64,000 nt of DNA, from contig NZ_LT629749.1 in assembly GCF_900105065.1 (NCBI RefSeq), positions 3,100,001 to 3,164,000 on the forward strand, written 5' to 3'. Positions 49,128 to 57,851 of the stretch are shown one piece after another. A program made the position numbers and the translations under genes. Numbering within the stretch: the first letter of the stretch is position 1; each line of letters begins with the position of its first letter. This DNA comes from Friedmanniella luteola. Lineage in GTDB: Bacteria > Actinomycetota > Actinomycetes > Propionibacteriales > Propionibacteriaceae. The notes below the pieces were generated by a model. The model did not search any database, was not told the DNA's origin, and was given only the letters and a program-made list of their open reading frames with translations.

Positions 49128-52100
49128 TCACCCGGTGACGAGCGCACGGATGTCGTCGGCGGTCAGGCGGGCGCCGGCCAGCGCGTCCTCGCCGAGCACC
49201 GAGCTGAAGAGCGCGCCCTTGCGGGCCTTCAGCTCCATCACCTTCTCCTCGATCGTGTCCTTGGCGACCATCCGGTAGACCATCACCGTCTTGTCCTGCC
49301 CGATCCGGTGCGTGCGGTCCACGGCCTGCGCCTCCGCGGCCGGGTTCCACCACGGGTCCAGCAGGAAGCAGTAGTCGGCCTCGGTCAGGTTGAGCCCGAA
49401 ACCGCCCGCCTTGAGGCTGATCAGGAACACCGGCGCCTCCCCGCCGCGGAACCGCTGCACCGCCGCGTCGCGGTCCCGGGTGGCGCCGTCGAGGTAGGCG
49501 TAGGCCATCCCGGCGGCGTCGAGCCGCTCCCGCACCCGGGCGAGGAAGCTGGTGAACTGGCTGAACACCAGCGCCCGGTGCCCCTCGGCGACCAGCTGCT
49601 CGAGGTCGGCCACCAGCAGCTCGGTCTTGGCCGACGGCACGCCGGCGTGCTCCGGGTCGACCAGCGCGGGGTCCAGGCTGAGCTGCCGCAGCCGGGTCAG
49701 GGACCCCAGGATGGTGAAGCGGTTGGCCTCGACGTCCTCGAGCAGGCCGAGCACCTTCTGCCGCTCCCGCTGCAGGTGGGTCTGGTAGATCCGCAGGTGC
49801 TTCGGCTGCAGCACCACCTCGAGCACCTGCTCCTGCTTGGGCGGCAGCTCCGGCGCGACGCTCTCCTTCGTGCGGCGCAGCACCAGCGGCCGGATCCGCC
49901 GCCGGAGCTGGGCCAGCCTGTCCCGGTCCCCGGCGCGCTCGATCGGGCGCCGGTAGTAGGCGGTGAAGCGGTCGGGGTCGGGGAACAGCCCGGGTGCGGT
50001 GAGCGAGAGCAGGGCCCACAGGTCCATCAGCGTGTTCTCCAGCGGCGTGCCGGTGACCGCCACCGTGAAGGGCACGGCCACCCGCCGGGCACTCAGGTAG
50101 GTCTTGGAGCGGTGGTTCTTGACGAACTGCGCCTCGTCGAGCACCAGACCGGCCCACGGCTGGGCGGCCCACACCTCCTCGTCGATGCGCAGCAGGGCGT
50201 AGGAGGTGACGACGACGTCGGCCCCGGTCACCAGCGCCGCCAGCGACCGCTCGGCGCCGCCCCGGCCCCGGGTGCGCTTGGCCTCGGACTCCCCGACGAC
50301 GACCACCCGCAGGCCCGGGGTGAAGGTCGCCGCCTCGCGCGACCAGTTGGTCACGACGCTGGTGGGGGCGACCACGAGGAACGGCGGCCCCGGACCGCGC
50401 TCCCGCGCGTGGGCGACCAGGGCGAGGACCTGCAGCGTCTTGCCGAGCCCCATGTCGTCGGCCAGCACGCCGCCGAGCCCGTGCGCCTCCAGGTGGGCCA
50501 GCCACCGGAACCCCTCGCGCTGGTAGGGCCGCAGCTCCGCGCGCAGGCCCGCCGGATCGGCGACCGGTGCGACGTCGAGCACCCCCGCCAGCCCGCGGAC
50601 CGCCCGGGTCCAGCGGGTGGACGCCTCCAGCACCGAGCCCAGGCCCACCAGGTCCTGCCACAGGCTCGCCTGCGCCCGGCTGATGGTCAGGCCGGGGTCG
50701 TCGTCGTGCTCGTCCTCGGTGAGCGCCTTGGACTCCTCGATCAGGTCGCGGAGCCGGTGCAGCTCGGGCCGGTCGAGCGAGAAGTAGACCCCCGTCTCCA
50801 GGACGAGGAGCTCGTCGCCGCGGGTCAGCGCGGCGAACAGCTGCTCGAAGGGGACGGCCTCGCCCTCCAGGGTGACCTCGATGTGCAGGTCGAACCAGTC
50901 GGTGCTGCCGTCCCGCTCCCGCGTCGAGACGGCGACGGCCGGCTCGGCGTCGCTGCGCCGGTAGGCCACCACCTCCCCCTCCAGCTCGACGGCGACGCCC
51001 GCCTGCTCGAGCAGCGGCAGCACCCGGTCGACGAAGACGAGGGCGGCCGGCTCCTCCAGCTCGGCCCGCGCCGCCGGGCGGGGCGGCGCCGAGCCGGGCG
51101 CGGCCAGGACGGGCAGCTCGGCGTAGGGCAGCGGCAGCGCCTCCACCAGCGCGGCCTCCGCCACCGGGTCACGCAGCCCGGGCCGGCCGACCGGCTCGTC
51201 GAGGGCGTGCTCGCGGGCCCGGTCGCCGTGGCCGTAGCGCACCGACCAGGCGAGGGCGACCCGGTGCCCGGGCTGGAAGGCCACGCGCAGGGCCAGCCCG
51301 GGCACGACCCGCTCGGGCAGCGCGACCGAGCCGTCGGTGGAGCCGAGCCCGACCTTGTGCCCCAGCGGCGGCGCGAACTCGGCCAGGAACCGCTCCTCGT
51401 CCCGCGCGGGCACCATCAGCGGCCGGGCGTCGACGACGAGCTGGCGGAGCTCCCGGCTCAGCAGCGACTCCAGGCGGGACACGAGCAACCGCTCGGTGCC
51501 CTCGGCGTCGGTGGAGACGGTGAAGACGCCGTGCGCGGGCTCGCCGAGGACGCCGACCGAGGGCAGGTCCAGGCGGCGACCGGCGAGGACGACCCGGGGC
51601 CCGACCAGCAGGCCGGCGGCCCCGGCCCGGCGCACGTCGAGGGTGACCGAGGCCCGCTCGGTGGTGCGCAGCGGGCCCAGCAGCGGCTTGGCGGTGACCA
51701 GGTCGAGCTCGGCCGTCGCAGCCTGGTCGAGCAGGGCCCAGAAGGCGCTGGTGACGGTGCTCAGCGACAGCCACGGCGTCCGGGGCAGTGCGTAGCGGGC
51801 GCCGGCACCGGCGGCGGCGCGGAACTGCAGGAGCAGCTCGCGGTGCTCGGCCCGGTAGGAGCGCGCGACGAAGTCCAGGTCCTCCCAGGAGATGCCGCTG
51901 CGCACCCAGCCGCCGCTGCGCCCCTGCCGCACCGGCCGCATCCGCAGGTCCTGGCGGCCGGCGTAGCCGCGGTAGGCCGGGATCTTCTCGACCTCGAACT
52001 CGAGGCCCAGCGGCGCGGCGGTCTCCACCGGCTCCGGGTCGGGGGCGGCCAGCAGCCGCTCCAGGGCCACCTCCCACTCCGGACGGTCCACCTGCTCGCG

Positions 52101-52448
52101 CAGCTTGGTGCTGGTCCGGGCCACGACGAGCACGGCGGCGGCGTGCTTGCAGTCCAGCACCACGGGGCAGGTGCACTGGCCGCGGTAGACCGTCGTCGCG
52201 CCCGAGCGGGACGCCCCCAGGTGCACCGTGACCGCGTAGTCGTCGCGGTAGCTGCCACGGACGCGGCCCGAGACCGTCATCGCGTCCTCGTCCAGCTCGA
52301 CGTCGTGCACCCGGCCCGACCGGGCGTAGACGAGGGCGCGCGCGAAGGCCTCGCTGCCGACCATGGCGGTGATCGCCTGGTTCCCCAGCAGCGAGTCCCA
52401 GGAGGGCACGCTGCTCGGGACCGGCACGCCCGCGATGCTAGTCGGCAC
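49128..52448 (-). CDS. SWIM zinc-finger SNF2-family DEAD/DEAH helicase
   Basis: About 1106 residues. The N-terminal SWIM zinc finger is CTCPVVLDCKH (CxCxnCxH). A long middle region precedes the SNF2 ATPase, with Walker A in LADDMGLGKTLQ, LDEAQFVKN (motif II), TGTPLENTL (III) and the C-terminal lobe LVFSQFTSFLARV plus RTHRIGQDKTVMVY (VI). It remodels or translocates on DNA or protein-DNA complexes, perhaps in repair or RNA-polymerase recycling. GTG starts at 52448, 52427 and 52409 are all possible. It is divergent from the repeat-protein gene. Confidence 0.92.
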   Translation of the reverse strand: MPTSIAGVPVPSSVPSWDSLLGNQAITAMVGSEAFARALVYARSGRVHDVELDEDAMTVSGRVRGSYRDDYAVTVHLGASRSGATTVYRGQCTCPVVLDCKHAAAVLVVARTSTKLREQVDRPEWEVALERLLAAPDPEPVETAAPLGLEFEVEKIPAYRGYAGRQDLRMRPVRQGRSGGWVRSGISWEDLDFVARSYRAEHRELLLQFRAAAGAGARYALPRTPWLSLSTVTSAFWALLDQAATAELDLVTAKPLLGPLRTTERASVTLDVRRAGAAGLLVGPRVVLAGRRLDLPSVGVLGEPAHGVFTVSTDAEGTERLLVSRLESLLSRELRQLVVDARPLMVPARDEERFLAEFAPPLGHKVGLGSTDGSVALPERVVPGLALRVAFQPGHRVALAWSVRYGHGDRAREHALDEPVGRPGLRDPVAEAALVEALPLPYAELPVLAAPGSAPPRPAARAELEEPAALVFVDRVLPLLEQAGVAVELEGEVVAYRRSDAEPAVAVSTRERDGSTDWFDLHIEVTLEGEAVPFEQLFAALTRGDELLVLETGVYFSLDRPELHRLRDLIEESKALTEDEHDDDPGLTISRAQASLWQDLVGLGSVLEASTRWTRAVRGLAGVLDVAPVADPAGLRAELRPYQREGFRWLAHLEAHGLGGVLADDMGLGKTLQVLALVAHARERGPGPPFLVVAPTSVVTNWSREAATFTPGLRVVVVGESEAKRTRGRGGAERSLAALVTGADVVVTSYALLRIDEEVWAAQPWAGLVLDEAQFVKNHRSKTYLSARRVAVPFTVAVTGTPLENTLMDLWALLSLTAPGLFPDPDRFTAYYRRPIERAGDRDRLAQLRRRIRPLVLRRTKESVAPELPPKQEQVLEVVLQPKHLRIYQTHLQRERQKVLGLLEDVEANRFTILGSLTRLRQLSLDPALVDPEHAGVPSAKTELLVADLEQLVAEGHRALVFSQFTSFLARVRERLDAAGMAYAYLDGATRDRDAAVQRFRGGEAPVFLISLKAGGFGLNLTEADYCFLLDPWWNPAAEAQAVDRTHRIGQDKTVMVYRMVAKDTIEEKVMELKARKGALFSSVLGEDALAGARLTADDIRALVTG

Positions 52449-52593
52449 CCCTGACACCGGCCGGGGGCCGCGGAGCCCCCGGACCCCGGCGGGGGCGCGG
52501 TTGGCGGCGGGTGCGACAGTGGTGCCGGAGCGCCCCCGAACGGCGCCCGAGACCCCACCCGCACCCCGGCGGGGGGAACGAGACGGAGGATCG

Positions 52594-52956
52594 ATGAGCG
52601 AATCGACGCAGGGTCCGAGCCAGGGCGCGGCGGACCTCGAGGGACCGGCCGACGGCGGCGCTGACGGCATCACCGGCATCCAGGACGGCGGCGCGGACGG
52701 CGGCGCCGACAGCGGAGCCGAGGGTCCCGCGGACGGCGGCGCCGAGGGCACCGCGGGCGTGCAGGACGGCGGTGCTGACGGCGGTGCCGAGGGTCCGGCC
52801 GACGGCGGCGCGGACGGCACCCCGGGCGTCTCCGACGGTGGAGCCGACGGCGGCGCGGACGGCGGCGCCGACGGTGGCGCCGAGGGTCCGGCCGACGGCG
52901 GCGCGGACGGCACCCCGGGCGTCTCCGACGGTGGAGCCGACGGCGACGCGCACTGA
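52594..52956 (+). CDS. Acidic Asp/Gly/Ala repeat protein, possible hydroxylase substrate
   Basis: 120 residues with a perfect GGAGG 4 bases before the ATG. After MSESTQGPSQ the protein consists of units (DGGA)n-EGPADGGADGTPGVS repeated about 3.5 times, with two to four DGGA modules each. There is no Lys, Arg, Cys or aromatic residue, so it is strongly acidic and probably unstructured. It has no signal peptide. Immediately downstream lie two perfect hairpins, a JmjC hydroxylase and a ferredoxin-like gene. That suggests it is the enzyme's substrate or a metal/calcium-binding polypeptide (inference). The repetitive DNA argues for unequal expansion of the module. Confidence 0.75.
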   Translation: MSESTQGPSQGAADLEGPADGGADGITGIQDGGADGGADSGAEGPADGGAEGTAGVQDGGADGGAEGPADGGADGTPGVSDGGADGGADGGADGGAEGPADGGADGTPGVSDGGADGDAH

Positions 52957-52991
52957 GCGCTGGGCCTTCCTTGAACCACACCACCTCCTCC

Positions 52992-53024
52992 GTCGACGCC
53001 CGGGCCGCGGGCCCGGGCGTCGAC
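52992..53024 (+). terminator. Perfect 15-bp hairpin between repeat gene and JmjC gene
   Basis: GTCGACGCCCGGGCC (52992-53006) and its exact complement (53010-53024) surround a 3-base loop. It begins 35 bases after the repeat-gene stop. It could stabilise the upstream mRNA or partially stop transcription, lowering the enzyme-to-substrate ratio. Confidence 0.7.
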
Positions 53025-53052
53025 AGCGGTGCGGGCGGACCGGACGGGGCGG

Positions 53053-53086
53053 ACCGCACGCCCGGCGCGCGCGCCGGGCGTGCGGT
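53053..53086 (+). terminator. Perfect 16-bp hairpin ending at the JmjC start codon
   Basis: ACCGCACGCCCGGCGC (53053-53068) and its exact complement (53071-53086) flank a 2-base loop. The right arm covers the first two bases of the GTG at 53085, so translation initiation of the hydroxylase would be occluded when folded. Confidence 0.7.
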
Positions 53087-54272
53087 GCTCCCCCGGCTGG
53101 TCGCCCTCGACGCGGAGACCTTCGCGCGGGAGCACTGGGGCCGCCGGGCGCTGCTGTCCACCGCCGCCGAGCTGCCGCAGGACTTCAGCGACCTGCTGAG
53201 CGCCGACGCCGTGGACGAGCTGGTCTCCGAGCGGGGCCTGCGCACCCCGTTCCTGCGGGTGGCCAAGAACGGCACGACGCTGGCCGAGCGCTCCTTCACC
53301 GCCCCGGGCGGGGTCGGCGCGGGCGTCGCCGACCAGGTCAGCGACGACAAGCTGGTGGACCTGTTCGCCGACGGCTCGACGATGGTGCTGCAGGCGCTGC
53401 ACCGGGTCTGGCCGCCGGTCCTCGCGTTCTGCCAGCAGCTGGCGGGCGAGCTGGGCCACCCCGTGCAGGCCAACGCCTACGTCACGCCGCCGCAGAACCA
53501 GGGGTTCAGCAACCACTACGACGTCCACGACGTGTTCGTGCTGCAGATCGAGGGCGAGAAGCGCTGGCAGATCCACGCGCCCGTCCTGGAGTCGCCGCTG
53601 CGCGACCAGCCCTGGAGCGACCGGAAGGCGGCCGTCGCCGCCCGGGCCGCCGAGGAGCCGCTCCTCGAGGCGGTGCTCCGCCCGGGTGACTGCCTGTACC
53701 TGCCGCGCGGCTTCCTGCACGCGGCGACCGCCCTGGGCGGGGTCAGCACCCACCTGACCATCGGCGTGCACAGCTGGACCCGCTACGCGCTCGCCGAGCA
53801 GCTGCTGCAGCAGGCACTCCGCACGGTGGCCAGCGACCCAGCCGTCCGCGGCTCGCTGCCCCTGGGGGTCGACCTCGGCCGGCCCGACGACCTGGCCGAC
53901 GACGTCGACGCGGTCCGGGCCGCCCTGGTGGCGGCGCTGGGCTCGGCCGACCTGGAGCGGCTCTCCGACGTCCTGCACGGCAGCGCCCGGGCCAGCCAGC
54001 GGGCCGCGCCCGTCGGCCCGCTGCGCCAGCTGCGGACCGCCGAGCACCTGCAGCCCGGCACCGTGCTGGTGCTGCGCGCCCACCTCACCGCCCGGCTGGT
54101 GGCCCGCGGCACCGGCGGCGTGGTCCGGAGCCGGGCCGCCGACCTCGTCGTCGACGCGGTCGACCTGCCCGCCGTCCGCCGGCTGCTGGAGACCGGGAGC
54201 GCCACGGCCGCGGAGCTCGGCGACGAGCTGGCCCGGCGGCTGGTGCTCGGCGGGCTGGTCGTCGCCGGGTGA
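53085..54272 (+). CDS. JmjC (cupin_4) 2-oxoglutarate/Fe(II) protein hydroxylase
   Basis: 395 residues in the ROX/NO66/MINA-like cupin_4 family, which hydroxylates protein residues using Fe(II), 2-oxoglutarate and O2. The N-terminus RLVALDAETFAREHWGRRALL and core GFSNHYDVHDVFVLQIEGEKRW are characteristic. Metal ligands are His144, Asp146 and the distal His212 in GFLHAATAL. A C-terminal winged-helix-like region follows. GTG at 53085 gives a family-like start; a TTG at 52971 would add 38 low-complexity residues read through the two hairpins. Its stop overlaps the ferredoxin-like gene (GTGA). Ribosomal proteins are known substrates of relatives, but the adjacent Asp-rich repeat protein is an alternative. 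Confidence 0.88.
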   Translation: MLPRLVALDAETFAREHWGRRALLSTAAELPQDFSDLLSADAVDELVSERGLRTPFLRVAKNGTTLAERSFTAPGGVGAGVADQVSDDKLVDLFADGSTMVLQALHRVWPPVLAFCQQLAGELGHPVQANAYVTPPQNQGFSNHYDVHDVFVLQIEGEKRWQIHAPVLESPLRDQPWSDRKAAVAARAAEEPLLEAVLRPGDCLYLPRGFLHAATALGGVSTHLTIGVHSWTRYALAEQLLQQALRTVASDPAVRGSLPLGVDLGRPDDLADDVDAVRAALVAALGSADLERLSDVLHGSARASQRAAPVGPLRQLRTAEHLQPGTVLVLRAHLTARLVARGTGGVVRSRAADLVVDAVDLPAVRRLLETGSATAAELGDELARRLVLGGLVVAG

Positions 54273-55198
54273 GCCTGCCCGCTCCGACGGGCGGGCCGGT
54301 CGTCCCGCCGCGCTGCGCGGACGCGGCCGACCAGCGGGGTGACCCGGTGGTCGGGACCGCCCCGCCCGCCCGGCGCTGGCTGCTGCTGGAGCACCCCGGA
54401 CCGTGGCGGGTCGACGCGGTGGCGGGCTCGGGGATCGACCCCGGCGTGCTGGGTCCGCTGACCGCGGCCGCCGCCCGGACGGCGACGCGCGTCCTGCTCA
54501 TCCGCCGACCCGGCCGCACCGCGGTGCCGGACGGGCGGACCTGGCTGCTCACCGGTCCCACCACCGGGACCGTCGAGGGCCGCTGGCGCTCCGACGCCGA
54601 GCTGGCGGGCGCGCTCGCCGCGCTGGCGGCGCCCGACCCGGACCCGGCCCTGACCGGTCCGTCGGCTCCTGTGGTGCTGGTCTGCGCGCACGGCGTGCAC
54701 GACACGTGCTGCGCGGTGCGGGGCCGGCCGGTGGCGGCGGCGCTGGCCGAGGTCCACCCCGGTCAGGTCTGGGAGTGCAGCCACGTCGGCGGCGACCGCT
54801 TCGCCCCCAACGTCGTCGTGCTCCCCGACGGCTACTACTACGGGGGCCTGACCGCGACCACCGCCGTCGCCACCGTGGCCGCGCACCAGGCGGGCCGGGT
54901 GCAGACCGAGCACCTGCGGGGGATGTCGCGCTTCACGCCGCCGCAGCAGGCCGCCGTCGTGGCCGCGCACGCCGCCTACGGGCCGCTCGCCGCGGGCGCG
55001 GTGGTGGTCACGGGTTCGCAGACCCAGGGGCCGGCCGGTGCCGCCGGGTCGCGCACCGTCGTCGACCTACGGGTGGCGGGGCTGCCCGGCGCCCTCCGGG
55101 CGGAGGTGCTCGCCGTGCGTCGGCCGCCGGCCCGGCTCACCTGCCGGGCCGCCCGGGACACCCCGGCCACCGCGTACCGGGTGGAGCGGCTCGGCTGA
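54269..55198 (+). CDS. Sucrase/ferredoxin-like (thioredoxin-fold [2Fe-2S]) protein
   Basis: 309 residues of the sucrase/ferredoxin-like family. The Cys/His cluster is VCAHGVHDTCCAVRG followed by WECSHVGGDRFAPNVVVLPDGYYYG, typical of its thioredoxin-like [2Fe-2S] domain. It starts by a 4-base overlap with the JmjC gene. It may supply electrons that keep the hydroxylase iron reduced, or act in redox balance (inference). The enzymatic name sucrase is historical and not implied. Confidence 0.85.
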   Translation: MSLPAPTGGPVVPPRCADAADQRGDPVVGTAPPARRWLLLEHPGPWRVDAVAGSGIDPGVLGPLTAAAARTATRVLLIRRPGRTAVPDGRTWLLTGPTTGTVEGRWRSDAELAGALAALAAPDPDPALTGPSAPVVLVCAHGVHDTCCAVRGRPVAAALAEVHPGQVWECSHVGGDRFAPNVVVLPDGYYYGGLTATTAVATVAAHQAGRVQTEHLRGMSRFTPPQQAAVVAAHAAYGPLAAGAVVVTGSQTQGPAGAAGSRTVVDLRVAGLPGALRAEVLAVRRPPARLTCRAARDTPATAYRVERLG

Positions 55199-55220
55199 GC
55201 CGACCACCCGGCCCGGAGGC

Positions 55221-56516
55221 TCAGACCGGCGCGGCCTCCAGGCCCAGGCCGCGTCGGCCGATCGCGTTGAGGTCCTCGACCGCGAACCGGTCGGGCCACT
55301 CCGCCTCGTAGTCCTCGACGGGGAAGTCACCCGGGCTCCGGCCGGCCAGGAAGGCCTCGCGGACCCCCGCCACGTAGGCCTCGTTCTTGGCGCACCGCGG
55401 GGCGGCCGGGATGTACATGACGTTGCCCCAGCCCTGCTGGTCGGTGACCGGCGCGACCGCGTGGATCATGTCGCAGTGCCACCAGACCGAGTCGCCCGGC
55501 CGCACGTCGGGGATGCCCGACAGGCCCTCGAGCAGCAGGGGGTGCCACTTCTCGTTGACCGGGAACGTCCGGTTCGGCTGCACGCCGCACATCTCGTCCT
55601 CGGGCACGTCGTCGAGCAGCGGCCGGAGCATCAGGTAGGCCATCGCCTTCGGGATCGGCACCGTGTGCAGGACGCCCTGGTCGTGGTCCATCTCGCTGAG
55701 CGCCGTCCAGCCCTGGAAGGTGCGGAACGCCGAGCACATCGTCGAGCCCGGGTACTGCACCGCCTCCGTGCGGTAGGCCGCGTCCCAGGGGTCGTAGGCG
55801 GCGACATCACCCGAGAACAGGTGCCGGAAGTGCCGCTGGTAGCCCTCGGACATCCAGAGGTCGAGCGTCCCGGGGTCGAGGTGGGTGCCCAGCCCGCCCG
55901 AGTTCGTGCCCGGCGGGCGGCGCCGGATCCGGTCGGGGTACATGGTGTCGACGTCGGGGTCGAACCAGACCTGCCCCTCGGACTCGTGGGTCCAGCGGGC
56001 GTTGAGGAAGGACTGCACCGTGGCCATCCGCGGGGACTGCCGCGCCTCCATCTGCGAGCGCGACCAGTAGATGGGGTAGATCTCGGGCTTGGACATCGAC
56101 AACGTGCCGAAGAAGTCGTCGGCCGGGCCGGTGTAGTGGTCGAAGAAGTGGTTGCCGTCGACGTAGTCGACCGCCGCCCGGTCCCAGTCCTCCGCCTGGG
56201 CCCGCGGGAAGTGGCCGCGGACGACCGCACAACCGCGCCGGGCCAGCTGGGCCAGCTGCGCCTCGCTGACCGTGCCCGCCTCGATGTCGGCGTAGTCGAT
56301 CTCCGGCCACACCTCCTCACCGCGGGCCTTCGTCGCCGCGATGTCGGCGACCTCGGCGCGGATGTGCTCCTCCACCTCGGCGAAGACGTCCGCGACGTTG
56401 CGCCCGGACGCCTCGATCCGGGCCCGCAGGGCGCGCTTGATCGCCACCGTCGCGGCGGGGATGTCCTCGGGGATGGTCTCCCAGTGCGGCAGACCCGTCG
56501 GGGTGTCGGTGCTCAT
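55221..56516 (-). CDS. DUF1479 (YbiU-like) Fe(II)/2-oxoglutarate dioxygenase-fold protein
   Basis: 431 residues of DUF1479. The iron motif HxD is in GTHLDPGTLDLWMS and the distal His in WWHCDMIHAVAP; DQGVLHTVPIPKAMAYLMLRPLL is family typical. It presumably oxidises a small molecule. ATG at 56516 follows GGAGG. It is divergent from a ROK regulator gene, and the palindrome TAAGGACTCCTTA lies 21 bases before its start, so it is probably repressed by that regulator. Confidence 0.88.
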   Translation of the reverse strand: MSTDTPTGLPHWETIPEDIPAATVAIKRALRARIEASGRNVADVFAEVEEHIRAEVADIAATKARGEEVWPEIDYADIEAGTVSEAQLAQLARRGCAVVRGHFPRAQAEDWDRAAVDYVDGNHFFDHYTGPADDFFGTLSMSKPEIYPIYWSRSQMEARQSPRMATVQSFLNARWTHESEGQVWFDPDVDTMYPDRIRRRPPGTNSGGLGTHLDPGTLDLWMSEGYQRHFRHLFSGDVAAYDPWDAAYRTEAVQYPGSTMCSAFRTFQGWTALSEMDHDQGVLHTVPIPKAMAYLMLRPLLDDVPEDEMCGVQPNRTFPVNEKWHPLLLEGLSGIPDVRPGDSVWWHCDMIHAVAPVTDQQGWGNVMYIPAAPRCAKNEAYVAGVREAFLAGRSPGDFPVEDYEAEWPDRFAVEDLNAIGRRGLGLEAAPV

Positions 56517-56657: not shown

Positions 56658-57851
56658 GTGACGCTGGAGGAGGGCCGGCAGCTGCCGCGGCTCGCGCTGC
56701 TCCGCGAGCTGACGGACCAGCACGTGCTGGCCCGGCTGCTGGACGGCGGGGCGCTCACCCGCGCCGAGCTGGCCACCCGGACGGGGATCTCCAAGCCGAC
56801 CATCTCCGAGAGCGTGCGCCGGCTGGTCGAGGGCGGGCTGCTCGAGGAGTCCGGGCAGCAGACGGGCAAGCGCGGGCCCAGCGGCACCTTCTACCGGGTG
56901 CGGCGCGACGCCGCCACGGCGCTGGCCGTCTCGGTGGGCCCGGACGGCGTCCAGGTGGAGAGCTACGACGTGACGGGCCGGCCGACCGGCCGGCTCCGGC
57001 ACGCCGTGGCGGTGCCCACGGACGCCGAGCACCTCGGCCCCCTGCTGGGCCACACCGTCCGAGCGGCCGTGGCCGCGGCCACCGGGCCGGTGCGGACCGT
57101 CTCCGTCAGCGTGGCGGGCCCGGTCGACCAGGCCACCGGCCGGCTGGTGGCCCTGCCGGACTCCCCCTTCGTGCTGGGCGAGCTGGCGCCACGGGAGCTG
57201 CTGGCCCCGCTGCTCGACGTCGCGCCCCGGATCGACAACGACGTGAACTGGGCCGCCCTCGCCGAGCACGCCGAGGGTGCGGCCCGCGACCTCGACGAGT
57301 TCTTCTTCGTCTACCTCGGCCCCGGGATCGGCGCGGCCTCGGTGAGCGGGGGTGCGGTCCGGCACGGCGCGGGGGGTCTGGCCGGGGAGCTGGCGCACGT
57401 GCTGACCGTCGGCCCCGACGGGCGCGGCGTGCGGCTGGTCGCCGCCCTGGCGGCGCAGGGTCTGCTGCTCCCCGGGTCACCCGCGCTGGACGTGGAGCGC
57501 GTGCTGGCCGTGCTGGCCTCCCGGTCGGCGCCGGACCGGGAGGCGGGCGACCAGCTGGCCCGGGCGGTGGCCGGCGCGCTGGCCTCGGTCACGGCGCTGC
57601 TGAACCCGCGCGCCGTCGTGCTCGGCGGCCCGTGGGGCGGCGCTGACGGCTTCTCCTCGCGGGTGCGCGCCGCCCTCGCCGGGCTGGCTGCGGTCCCGAC
57701 CGAGCTGCGCACGTCCACCCTCGGTGCGGACGCGGCGCTGTCCGGGGCCCGCATCGACGCCGTGCGCCGGATGCAGGCCGCACTCGGAGGGGTGCCCGGG
57801 ACCCGACACCTCCCGGAACGGGAGAACGGGCCGTCCGGCGTCCCCGCCTGA
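56658..57851 (+). CDS. ROK-family transcriptional regulator without the zinc motif
   Basis: 397 residues. The N-terminal winged helix reads ALTRAELATRTGISKPTISESVRRLVEGGLL. The C-terminal ROK sugar-kinase fold has [32 protein letters not shown], with the expected Glu-x-x-His. The usual CxCGxxGCxE zinc motif just after is absent (GPDGRGVRLVAALAAQG), so the protein is probably a regulator with altered ligand response rather than a kinase. Palindromic sites lie upstream. Likely targets are itself and the divergent DUF1479 gene. Confidence 0.88.
   Translation: MTLEEGRQLPRLALLRELTDQHVLARLLDGGALTRAELATRTGISKPTISESVRRLVEGGLLEESGQQTGKRGPSGTFYRVRRDAATALAVSVGPDGVQVESYDVTGRPTGRLRHAVAVPTDAEHLGPLLGHTVRAAVAAATGPVRTVSVSVAGPVDQATGRLVALPDSPFVLGELAPRELLAPLLDVAPRIDNDVNWAALAEHAEGAARDLDEFFFVYLGPGIGAASVSGGAVRHGAGGLAGELAHVLTVGPDGRGVRLVAALAAQGLLLPGSPALDVERVLAVLASRSAPDREAGDQLARAVAGALASVTALLNPRAVVLGGPWGGADGFSSRVRAALAGLAAVPTELRTSTLGADAALSGARIDAVRRMQAALGGVPGTRHLPERENGPSGVPA

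Follow-up and report, generated by a model that had tools for sequence, protein, structure and literature searches.

The ribosomal oxygenases NO66, MINA53 and YcfD/RoxA (JmjC_2 family) combine an HxD...H motif with a lysine of the 2-oxoglutarate (2OG) type and a C-terminal winged-helix-like domain. JmjC enzymes are also known from ribosomal-peptide pathways. The available text of the respective reports describes BipG as a JmjC enzyme that hydroxylates ornithine of the biphenomycin precursor (PMC12707348), and BpmG and PbsQ as JmjC enzymes in such pathways (PMC12257519). In the available part of Bregman et al. 2025, PF08007 JmjC proteins are found fused to an RRE (the recognition element of ribosomally synthesised and post-translationally modified peptides, RiPPs), and bacterial PF08007 homologues are placed in 'RiPP-like genomic contexts' (PMC12710340). 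Here, we analyse a three-gene cassette located at 52594-55198 on the + strand of a 64,000-nt stretch of a Friedmanniella luteola contig (the window). The cassette encodes an Asp-repeat protein, a JmjC_2 protein sharing the above hallmarks and a sucrase/ferredoxin-like (Suc_Fer) protein. On balance, we favour its being a peptide-modification cassette, in which the JmjC protein of ribosomal-oxygenase fold hydroxylates the Asp-repeat precursor with help from Suc_Fer, yielding a multiply β-hydroxylated Asp polymer.

The cassette differs from each of the described systems. Unlike NO66, MINA53 and YcfD, the cassette enzyme is tied to a repeat precursor and usually to a Suc_Fer gene, and has an accessory distribution. 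It resembles the biphenomycin pathway (BipG/BpmG, and the relative PbsQ) in associating a JmjC-type protein with a ribosomal peptide. However, the short FRF-type core of biphenomycin sits in a larger cluster with a multinuclear non-haem iron oxidase (MNIO), a B12-dependent radical S-adenosylmethionine enzyme (B12-rSAM), an arginase and a peptidase, whereas the core is an Asp repeat here and no such genes recur across the 80 named loci introduced below. The PF08007 passage of Bregman et al. names no precursor, repeat or ferredoxin partner, and a counterpart of the RRE in the proteins it covers is unsupported in the cassette enzymes by our profile test. According to the available text of PMC12971057, β-hydroxyaspartate acts as a metal ligand in non-ribosomal siderophores and is made by Fe(II)/2OG enzymes; these belong to other hydroxylase families, whereas the cassette product is a putative ribosomal polymer. 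No description of the cassette was found in the literature searched, where coverage of subscription papers was poor. Xia et al. 2025 reportedly deals with macrocyclization by a 2OG dioxygenase in RiPPs, which might overlap with the cassette. While JmjC enzymes in ribosomal-peptide pathways are already known, what we did not find described is a dedicated Asp-repeat substrate that, along with a ferredoxin partner, is conserved phylum-wide.

Results

A repeat gene is linked to the JmjC gene across Actinomycetota

Relatives of the window's JmjC gene were drawn from three samples; loci and genomes carry L and G numbers, respectively. A relative is present in 31 of the 147 genomes of the family sample (loci read as L002-L031 plus L218). 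A scan of named genomes matched at least 594 stretches; relatedness was confirmed for 579 of them, and the best 80 were analysed as 'named loci' (Streptomyces, Arthrobacter, Nocardioides, Terrabacter, Modestobacter, Klenkia, Brevibacterium, Brachybacterium, Kineosporia and others). In a sample of the phylum Actinomycetota, the JmjC profile matched 60 of 396 genomes. These were split by score into 52 genomes counted as family members, two of which have a contig edge upstream (leaving 50 readable), and a further 8 genomes whose 13 loci served as controls.

An open reading frame (ORF) rich in Asp and Gly repeats was found directly upstream of the JmjC gene in 31/31 genomes of the family sample, the L027 copy being cut by the contig start, and in 77 of the 80 named loci, the other three (L091, L096 and L100) having a contig edge or a run of N at this position. 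In the phylum sample, 48 of the 50 readable genomes, the window's own included, have an Asp-repeat ORF upstream; of the other two, L198 combines an N-terminal motif with a different duplicated core, and L136 has a non-repetitive acidic ORF. Neither a repeat gene nor an adjacent Suc_Fer gene was present at any of the 13 lower-scoring control loci. A preliminary description of this DNA had proposed a dedicated enzyme-substrate pair. This proposal withstood the refutation set for it, as relatives of the enzyme throughout Actinomycetota have a repeat neighbour, while the step from enzyme to substrate is one that we infer.

A search for DGGAD-repeat genes beside cupin_4-type genes had been set beforehand as a test of that proposal. 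A 27-base degenerate code for DGGADGGAD matched 14 of 144 family genomes, and in 13 of these the match adjoins the JmjC gene; the fourteenth (G015, L114) is a repeat gene cut by the contig end. The reversed control pattern matched 0/144 family and 2/396 phylum genomes. Within the phylum sample, the 27-base pattern was found in 13 of 396 genomes, four of which have it at the JmjC locus (1-4 matches each). The remaining nine have a single match each, by eye in unrelated or out-of-frame ORFs, including one within an Arg-containing repetitive ORF (L168). The possibility that the repeat gene is common elsewhere was rejected on the basis of these solitary off-locus matches.

Counting only loci with at least 700 nt of downstream DNA, a Suc_Fer gene directly follows the JmjC gene at 25/28 family, 67/79 named and 43/49 phylum loci. 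The Suc_Fer profile match starts 3-107 nt past the JmjC stop in the phylum loci, and hence the genes abut or overlap. Three genomes of the same genus (G059, G088 and G114) keep the first two genes and have no PF06999 (Suc_Fer) match anywhere, which makes the repeat and JmjC genes the core of the cassette and Suc_Fer an accessory. Six same-genus genomes lack the enzyme; five of these were tested and contained neither PF08007 nor PF06999, while the window genome has one match to each. This pattern points to gain or loss of the cassette as a unit. Placing five labels on an enzyme tree (87 rows) requires 6 changes as compared to a shuffled mean of 40.5, a figure to which near relatives contribute, as they alone also cluster labels. 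Clustering of gene families over up to 6 kb on each side of the 80 named loci, a procedure blind to the low-complexity repeat gene, revealed none beyond JmjC (78) and Suc_Fer (51) in more than 9 loci.

The repeat protein of the window is under selection

The window's repeat protein has the composition G42 A22 D20 P7 S6 E6 T5 Q4 V3 I2 M1 L1 H1, with K, R, C, N, F, W and Y missing. DGGA occurs 13 times, written in 7 DNA versions, and EGPADGGA 4 times (at residues 16, 43, 66 and 97), written in 3. When aligned by codon with its closest relative (L003), the gene shows 89 identical, 27 synonymous and 4 nonsynonymous codons, with 42 gap columns. The 27 synonymous versus 4 nonsynonymous differences indicate a frame under protein-level selection as opposed to a chance GC-rich frame. 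The acidic 120-residue DGGA/EGPADGGA protein devoid of Lys, Arg and Cys, as first described, is thus confirmed in both composition and frame. When the upstream regions of relatives were aligned (24 of Streptomyces type and 15 of Arthrobacter type), a GGAGGA sequence 5' of the ATG was prominent. No family was found for the window protein in a Pfam/NCBIfam search at E 0.1. Two artefacts were considered and rejected: a chance or artefact frame, on the above substitution pattern plus the recurring linkage, and the antisense 'PSAPPS' frames, which mirror the repeat gene frame.

Precursors share an Asp-rich core, and many an N-terminal motif

Class A cores contain DGGAD and EGPADGGAxGTPGVxDGGADGGA units, while class B cores are mixtures such as DADGTDGDSTDG, DGDASDASD or DTDTTDSTD. 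Composition was analysed over 155 cores, a set that was chosen by Asp-containing motifs, trimmed to the Asp-dense start and includes overlapping loci. Asp makes up 10-39% of these and is the sole residue never below 10%. Gly reaches at least 10% in 148 and Ala in 144 cores; both are present in all 155, with minima of 2% and 5%, respectively, and no core contains Cys. Individual cores hold 5-33 Asp in class A and 11-43 in class B, which would imply many turnovers per chain.

An N-terminal motif (such as LTDEDIET, LSDDEIVT or LNDDDMVT) opens 43 of 48 class B precursors, and is found in 11 of 108 class A precursors (for example LDDDDMTT). RiPP precursors are built in this way, with a conserved N-terminal motif ahead of a repetitive core that changes fast. 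Pfam/NCBIfam searches with nine precursors (the window's plus eight) gave no covering model and few weak matches, all under the cut-off, one being a daptide-type RiPP model with L198 (E 0.009).

Two upstream ORFs have unusual cores. That of L198 (G259) starts with ITDNDITS, after which a 20-residue core unlike the others is present in two identical copies; there is no adjacent Suc_Fer gene, and one PF06999 match elsewhere in the genome. In that of L155 (G425), the repeats that accompany LGDDDISS include Arg and Tyr (ADGTDQGV.GGTYGPRDA); the genome has no PF06999 match.

The JmjC protein has intact active-site residues and a ribosomal-oxygenase-type fold

The JmjC protein matches PF08007 with E 3.3e-28 (98.2 bits against a curated cut-off of 22), and the profile is matched at E 0.01 by 38/38 members of the wider alignment of relatives (A3, 38 rows). 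Residues H182, D184, H250 and K197 are invariant across A3 and a second alignment (A2, 10 rows). We take the role of the NO66 lysine aligned with K197 to be 2OG binding. Translation may start at the TTG at 52971 or at an alternative GTG at 53085. The triad had been reported as His144/Asp146/His212, numbers that equate with H182/D184/H250 and fit the GTG start; the intact HxD...H of a JmjC/cupin_4 hydroxylase therefore stands, and extends to the relatives.

An AF2 model of the protein has a mean pLDDT (predicted local distance difference test) of 88.1, with residues 1-35 of the TTG version below 50. Foldseek aligned the model with NO66 over 460 columns (E 6.7e-24, template modelling (TM) scores 0.65/0.62, root-mean-square deviation 6.0). 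MINA53, YcfD and Bacillus subtilis YxbC are the other nearest solved structures, in agreement with sequence searches. The C-terminal domain is winged-helix-like. HxDxHDVF is present in most JmjC members and LRTPFLR in those of class A; neither signature is exclusive, as both are shown by controls L211 and L212.

The Suc_Fer-like protein is a probable [2Fe-2S] carrier

The third gene product matches PF06999 with E 4.3e-18 (66.5 bits against a cut-off of 34.9). The JmjC stop and the Suc_Fer start share a GTGA overlap, confirming the translational arrangement originally noted for this [2Fe-2S] sucrase/ferredoxin-like gene. According to the available text of PMC8482512, the cluster motif of Aim32 is CX8CXnHX3H. 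The cassette protein resembles Apd1/Aim32 in the CX8C spacing of Aim32, and the Aquifex thioredoxin-like ferredoxin (1f37) in fold; the latter was the best but weak match of a Protein Data Bank (PDB) fold search (E 3.9e-3, with none at or below 0.001). A stricter pattern across the CX8C stretch matched 109 of 136 Suc_Fer proteins. In contrast to Aim32, the second His of HX3H is Asp in 130 of the 136 (Cys in 1, unmatched in 5), and 120 have an LTC motif close to the C-terminus. We regard the protein as a probable [2Fe-2S] electron carrier.

Table 1 Features of the cassette in the window (A2-A4, alignments of relatives; A4, 29 Suc_Fer rows).
Feature	Position	Strand	Basis
Ribosome-binding site GGAGG of the repeat gene	52585-52589	+	Sequence, 5' of ATG
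Repeat protein, putative precursor/substrate, 120 aa	52594-52956	+	Conserved neighbour in relatives
JmjC_2 (PF08007) protein, presumed Fe(II)/2OG oxygenase	52971(TTG)-54272	+	PF08007 match, ribosomal-oxygenase-type fold
HYD, presumed metal ligands H182 and D184	53514-53522	+	Invariant in A2 and A3
K197, presumed 2OG-binding lysine	53559-53561	+	Invariant; aligns with NO66 Lys
H250, presumed third metal ligand	53718-53720	+	Invariant in A2 and A3
Suc_Fer-like protein, thioredoxin-like ferredoxin fold, probable [2Fe-2S] electron carrier	54269-55198	+	PF06999, fold
C139-x8-C148 (CX8C), probable cluster cysteines	54683-54712	+	Invariant in 29 rows of A4
H172-x3-D176, equivalent of Aim32 HX3H	54782-54796	+	Invariant in A4

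Genomic neighbourhood

A gene for a Gig2-like protein (PF07350, E 6.9e-139; 55221-56516, - strand) converges on the cassette; its family is, we assume, another of the Fe/2OG oxygenase type. This is followed by a ROK-family regulator (56658-57851, + strand) with a winged-helix N-terminus (PF00480, E 1e-23). On the other side, a large ORF at ~49128-52434 (- strand) diverges from the cassette and, judged by eye from DDMGLGKT and a SWIM-like cysteine motif, probably encodes a SNF2-type helicase.

Neither promoters nor terminators were detected in scans of 52400-55400. Upstream of the precursors of the above 24 Streptomyces-type and 15 Arthrobacter-type relatives, alignment and 8-mer counting, without an operator model, revealed no operator shared beyond the ribosome-binding site. 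No protease or exporter recurs in the 80 named loci over up to 6 kb on either side of the cassette. With respect to mobility, no phage match was found, and 126 plasmid records matched at below 60% identity each, none covering 80% of the query. The cupin/JmjC protein found on plasmids of Streptomyces clavuligerus is more remote, being 38% identical across 60% of the query.

Discussion

From the observed genes, their conserved linkage, selection on the repeat protein, the intact active-site residues and the fold class, we infer the hydroxylation, its site, the product, the reductase role, metal binding and the biological role along the following lines. The first gene would provide a small acidic precursor, in which Asp-containing units, spaced by small residues, are arrayed behind a short N-terminal part. 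The JmjC enzyme would be recruited to this precursor and most likely hydroxylate the β-carbon of many Asp per chain. BipG, with its hydroxylation of ornithine, sets a precedent for a JmjC enzyme acting on a ribosomal precursor. Asp is the likely site, given that relatives of the enzyme hydroxylate protein side chains and that the functional side chain shared by the cores is Asp. The thioredoxin-fold, probably [2Fe-2S], Suc_Fer protein may return the enzyme iron to Fe(II) after uncoupled turnovers, such re-reduction being the simplest role for it; it would be helpful yet dispensable, as some lineages keep the first two genes only. The cassette would yield a ribosomally encoded Asp polymer with multiple β-hydroxylations, plausibly an Fe3+ or Ca2+ binder in view of the ligand role that the available siderophore literature assigns to β-hydroxyaspartate.

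The suggestion of a 'RiPP-like product', also made in the preliminary description, holds in part. It gains from the N-terminal motif of the deeper branches, and from the small precursor gene conserved beside a presumed modifying enzyme by which RiPPs are recognised and which the adjacency provides here. It loses from the window precursor, which is without the N-terminal motif, so that the argument from architecture reaches it via relatives alone, from the lack of a recurring protease or exporter in the named loci, and from the C-terminal domain, which gave no PqqD/RRE match. RiPP clusters need not all contain a protease or exporter, and some RiPP classes do without an RRE.

A number of observations weigh against the proposed Asp-hydroxylating cassette. 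With respect to chemistry, the annotations of the closest solved relatives of the enzyme name His or Arg in ribosomal proteins, rather than Asp, as the hydroxylated residue, and the universality of Asp is partly built into cores that were chosen and trimmed by Asp. When the C-terminal domains of classes A and B were compared using hhalign, probabilities were 1.9-4.0% for PqqD and 21.9-92.2% for MarR; as the resemblance to MarR exceeds that to PqqD, with profiles built in this analysis, an RRE identity is unsupported. In terms of linkage, Suc_Fer is missing despite room for it in 3/28 family, 12/79 named and 6/49 phylum loci. At L136 (G285) and at L217, the second of the copies in G074, a family JmjC gene is preceded by a non-repetitive acidic ORF and has no Suc_Fer gene next to it; L216, likewise the second copy in its genome (G174), has 133 nt of upstream sequence and shows neither a clear repeat nor an adjacent Suc_Fer gene. 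These three loci possibly have a different substrate type. Nor are the controls a clean outgroup: a quick tree places L211 within class B and attaches L203 to this class by a very long branch, the HxDxHDVF signature is common to L211 and L212, and a loose N-terminal pattern also occurs in three small ORFs at three control loci. Finally, no iron-regulator site was recognised upstream in the two genus groups, and neither the surroundings of the 80 named loci nor these upstream regions provided neighbourhood or regulatory evidence for metals.

Among alternative explanations, the one that survives best has the JmjC enzyme act on the repeat protein elsewhere or otherwise, by Ala, Gly, Thr or Ser oxidation, a backbone change or a crosslink, without forming a hydroxy-Asp polymer. 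2OG enzymes are chemically versatile, the conserved linkage also fits this scenario, and Gly and Ala are present in every core. However, these residues fall to the minima given above while Asp never does so, in cores partly selected for Asp, and Asp is the sole functional side chain in every core. We consider a different target residue or outcome unlikely, albeit worth keeping in mind.

It is improbable that the repeat protein serves, in the manner of a hydrophilin, to protect against desiccation or cold, with hydroxylation merely tuning its solubility and metal binding irrelevant. The Gly-rich, hydrophilic and Cys-free composition would suit such a function, and many host genera are soil genera; but the fact that no other family is found in more than 9 of the 80 named loci argues against a shared stress neighbourhood, and the N-terminal motif of the deeper branches is left unexplained. 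Similarly improbable is an enzyme that acts on uL2, uL15 or bL16 as ribosomal oxygenases ordinarily do, with the acidic repeat protein an unmodified helper, decoy or storage peptide: while NO66, MINA53 and YcfD are the best structural and sequence matches and the cassette JmjC is the sole PF08007 match of the window genome, the accessory distribution (none of the five tested genomes of the genus that lack the cassette has a PF08007 match) speaks against a housekeeping function, and every family enzyme read with readable upstream DNA has an acidic ORF there, unlike the 13 lower-scoring loci, which are without the repeat gene.

A bolder form of the Asp-hydroxylating cassette can be put forward tentatively, and we doubt that it will hold in full: undescribed ribosomal poly-β-hydroxyaspartate polymers may occur Actinomycetota-wide, produced by a ribosomal oxygenase that has been repurposed and has a ferredoxin of its own, and serving as genetically encoded multidentate Fe(III)/Ca(II) chelators. 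By analogy, these would be a ribosomal counterpart of the β-hydroxyaspartate siderophores.

If the enzyme does modify the repeats, a common modification cassette would be present in well-studied genera such as Streptomyces, Arthrobacter, Nocardioides, Modestobacter and others, and its size of two to three genes makes it easy to test. It would represent the recruitment of a ribosomal oxygenase to a dedicated repeat substrate and a natural multi-site hydroxylation system for chelating polymers, and would allow a direct test of how bacterial 2OG oxygenases stay reduced.

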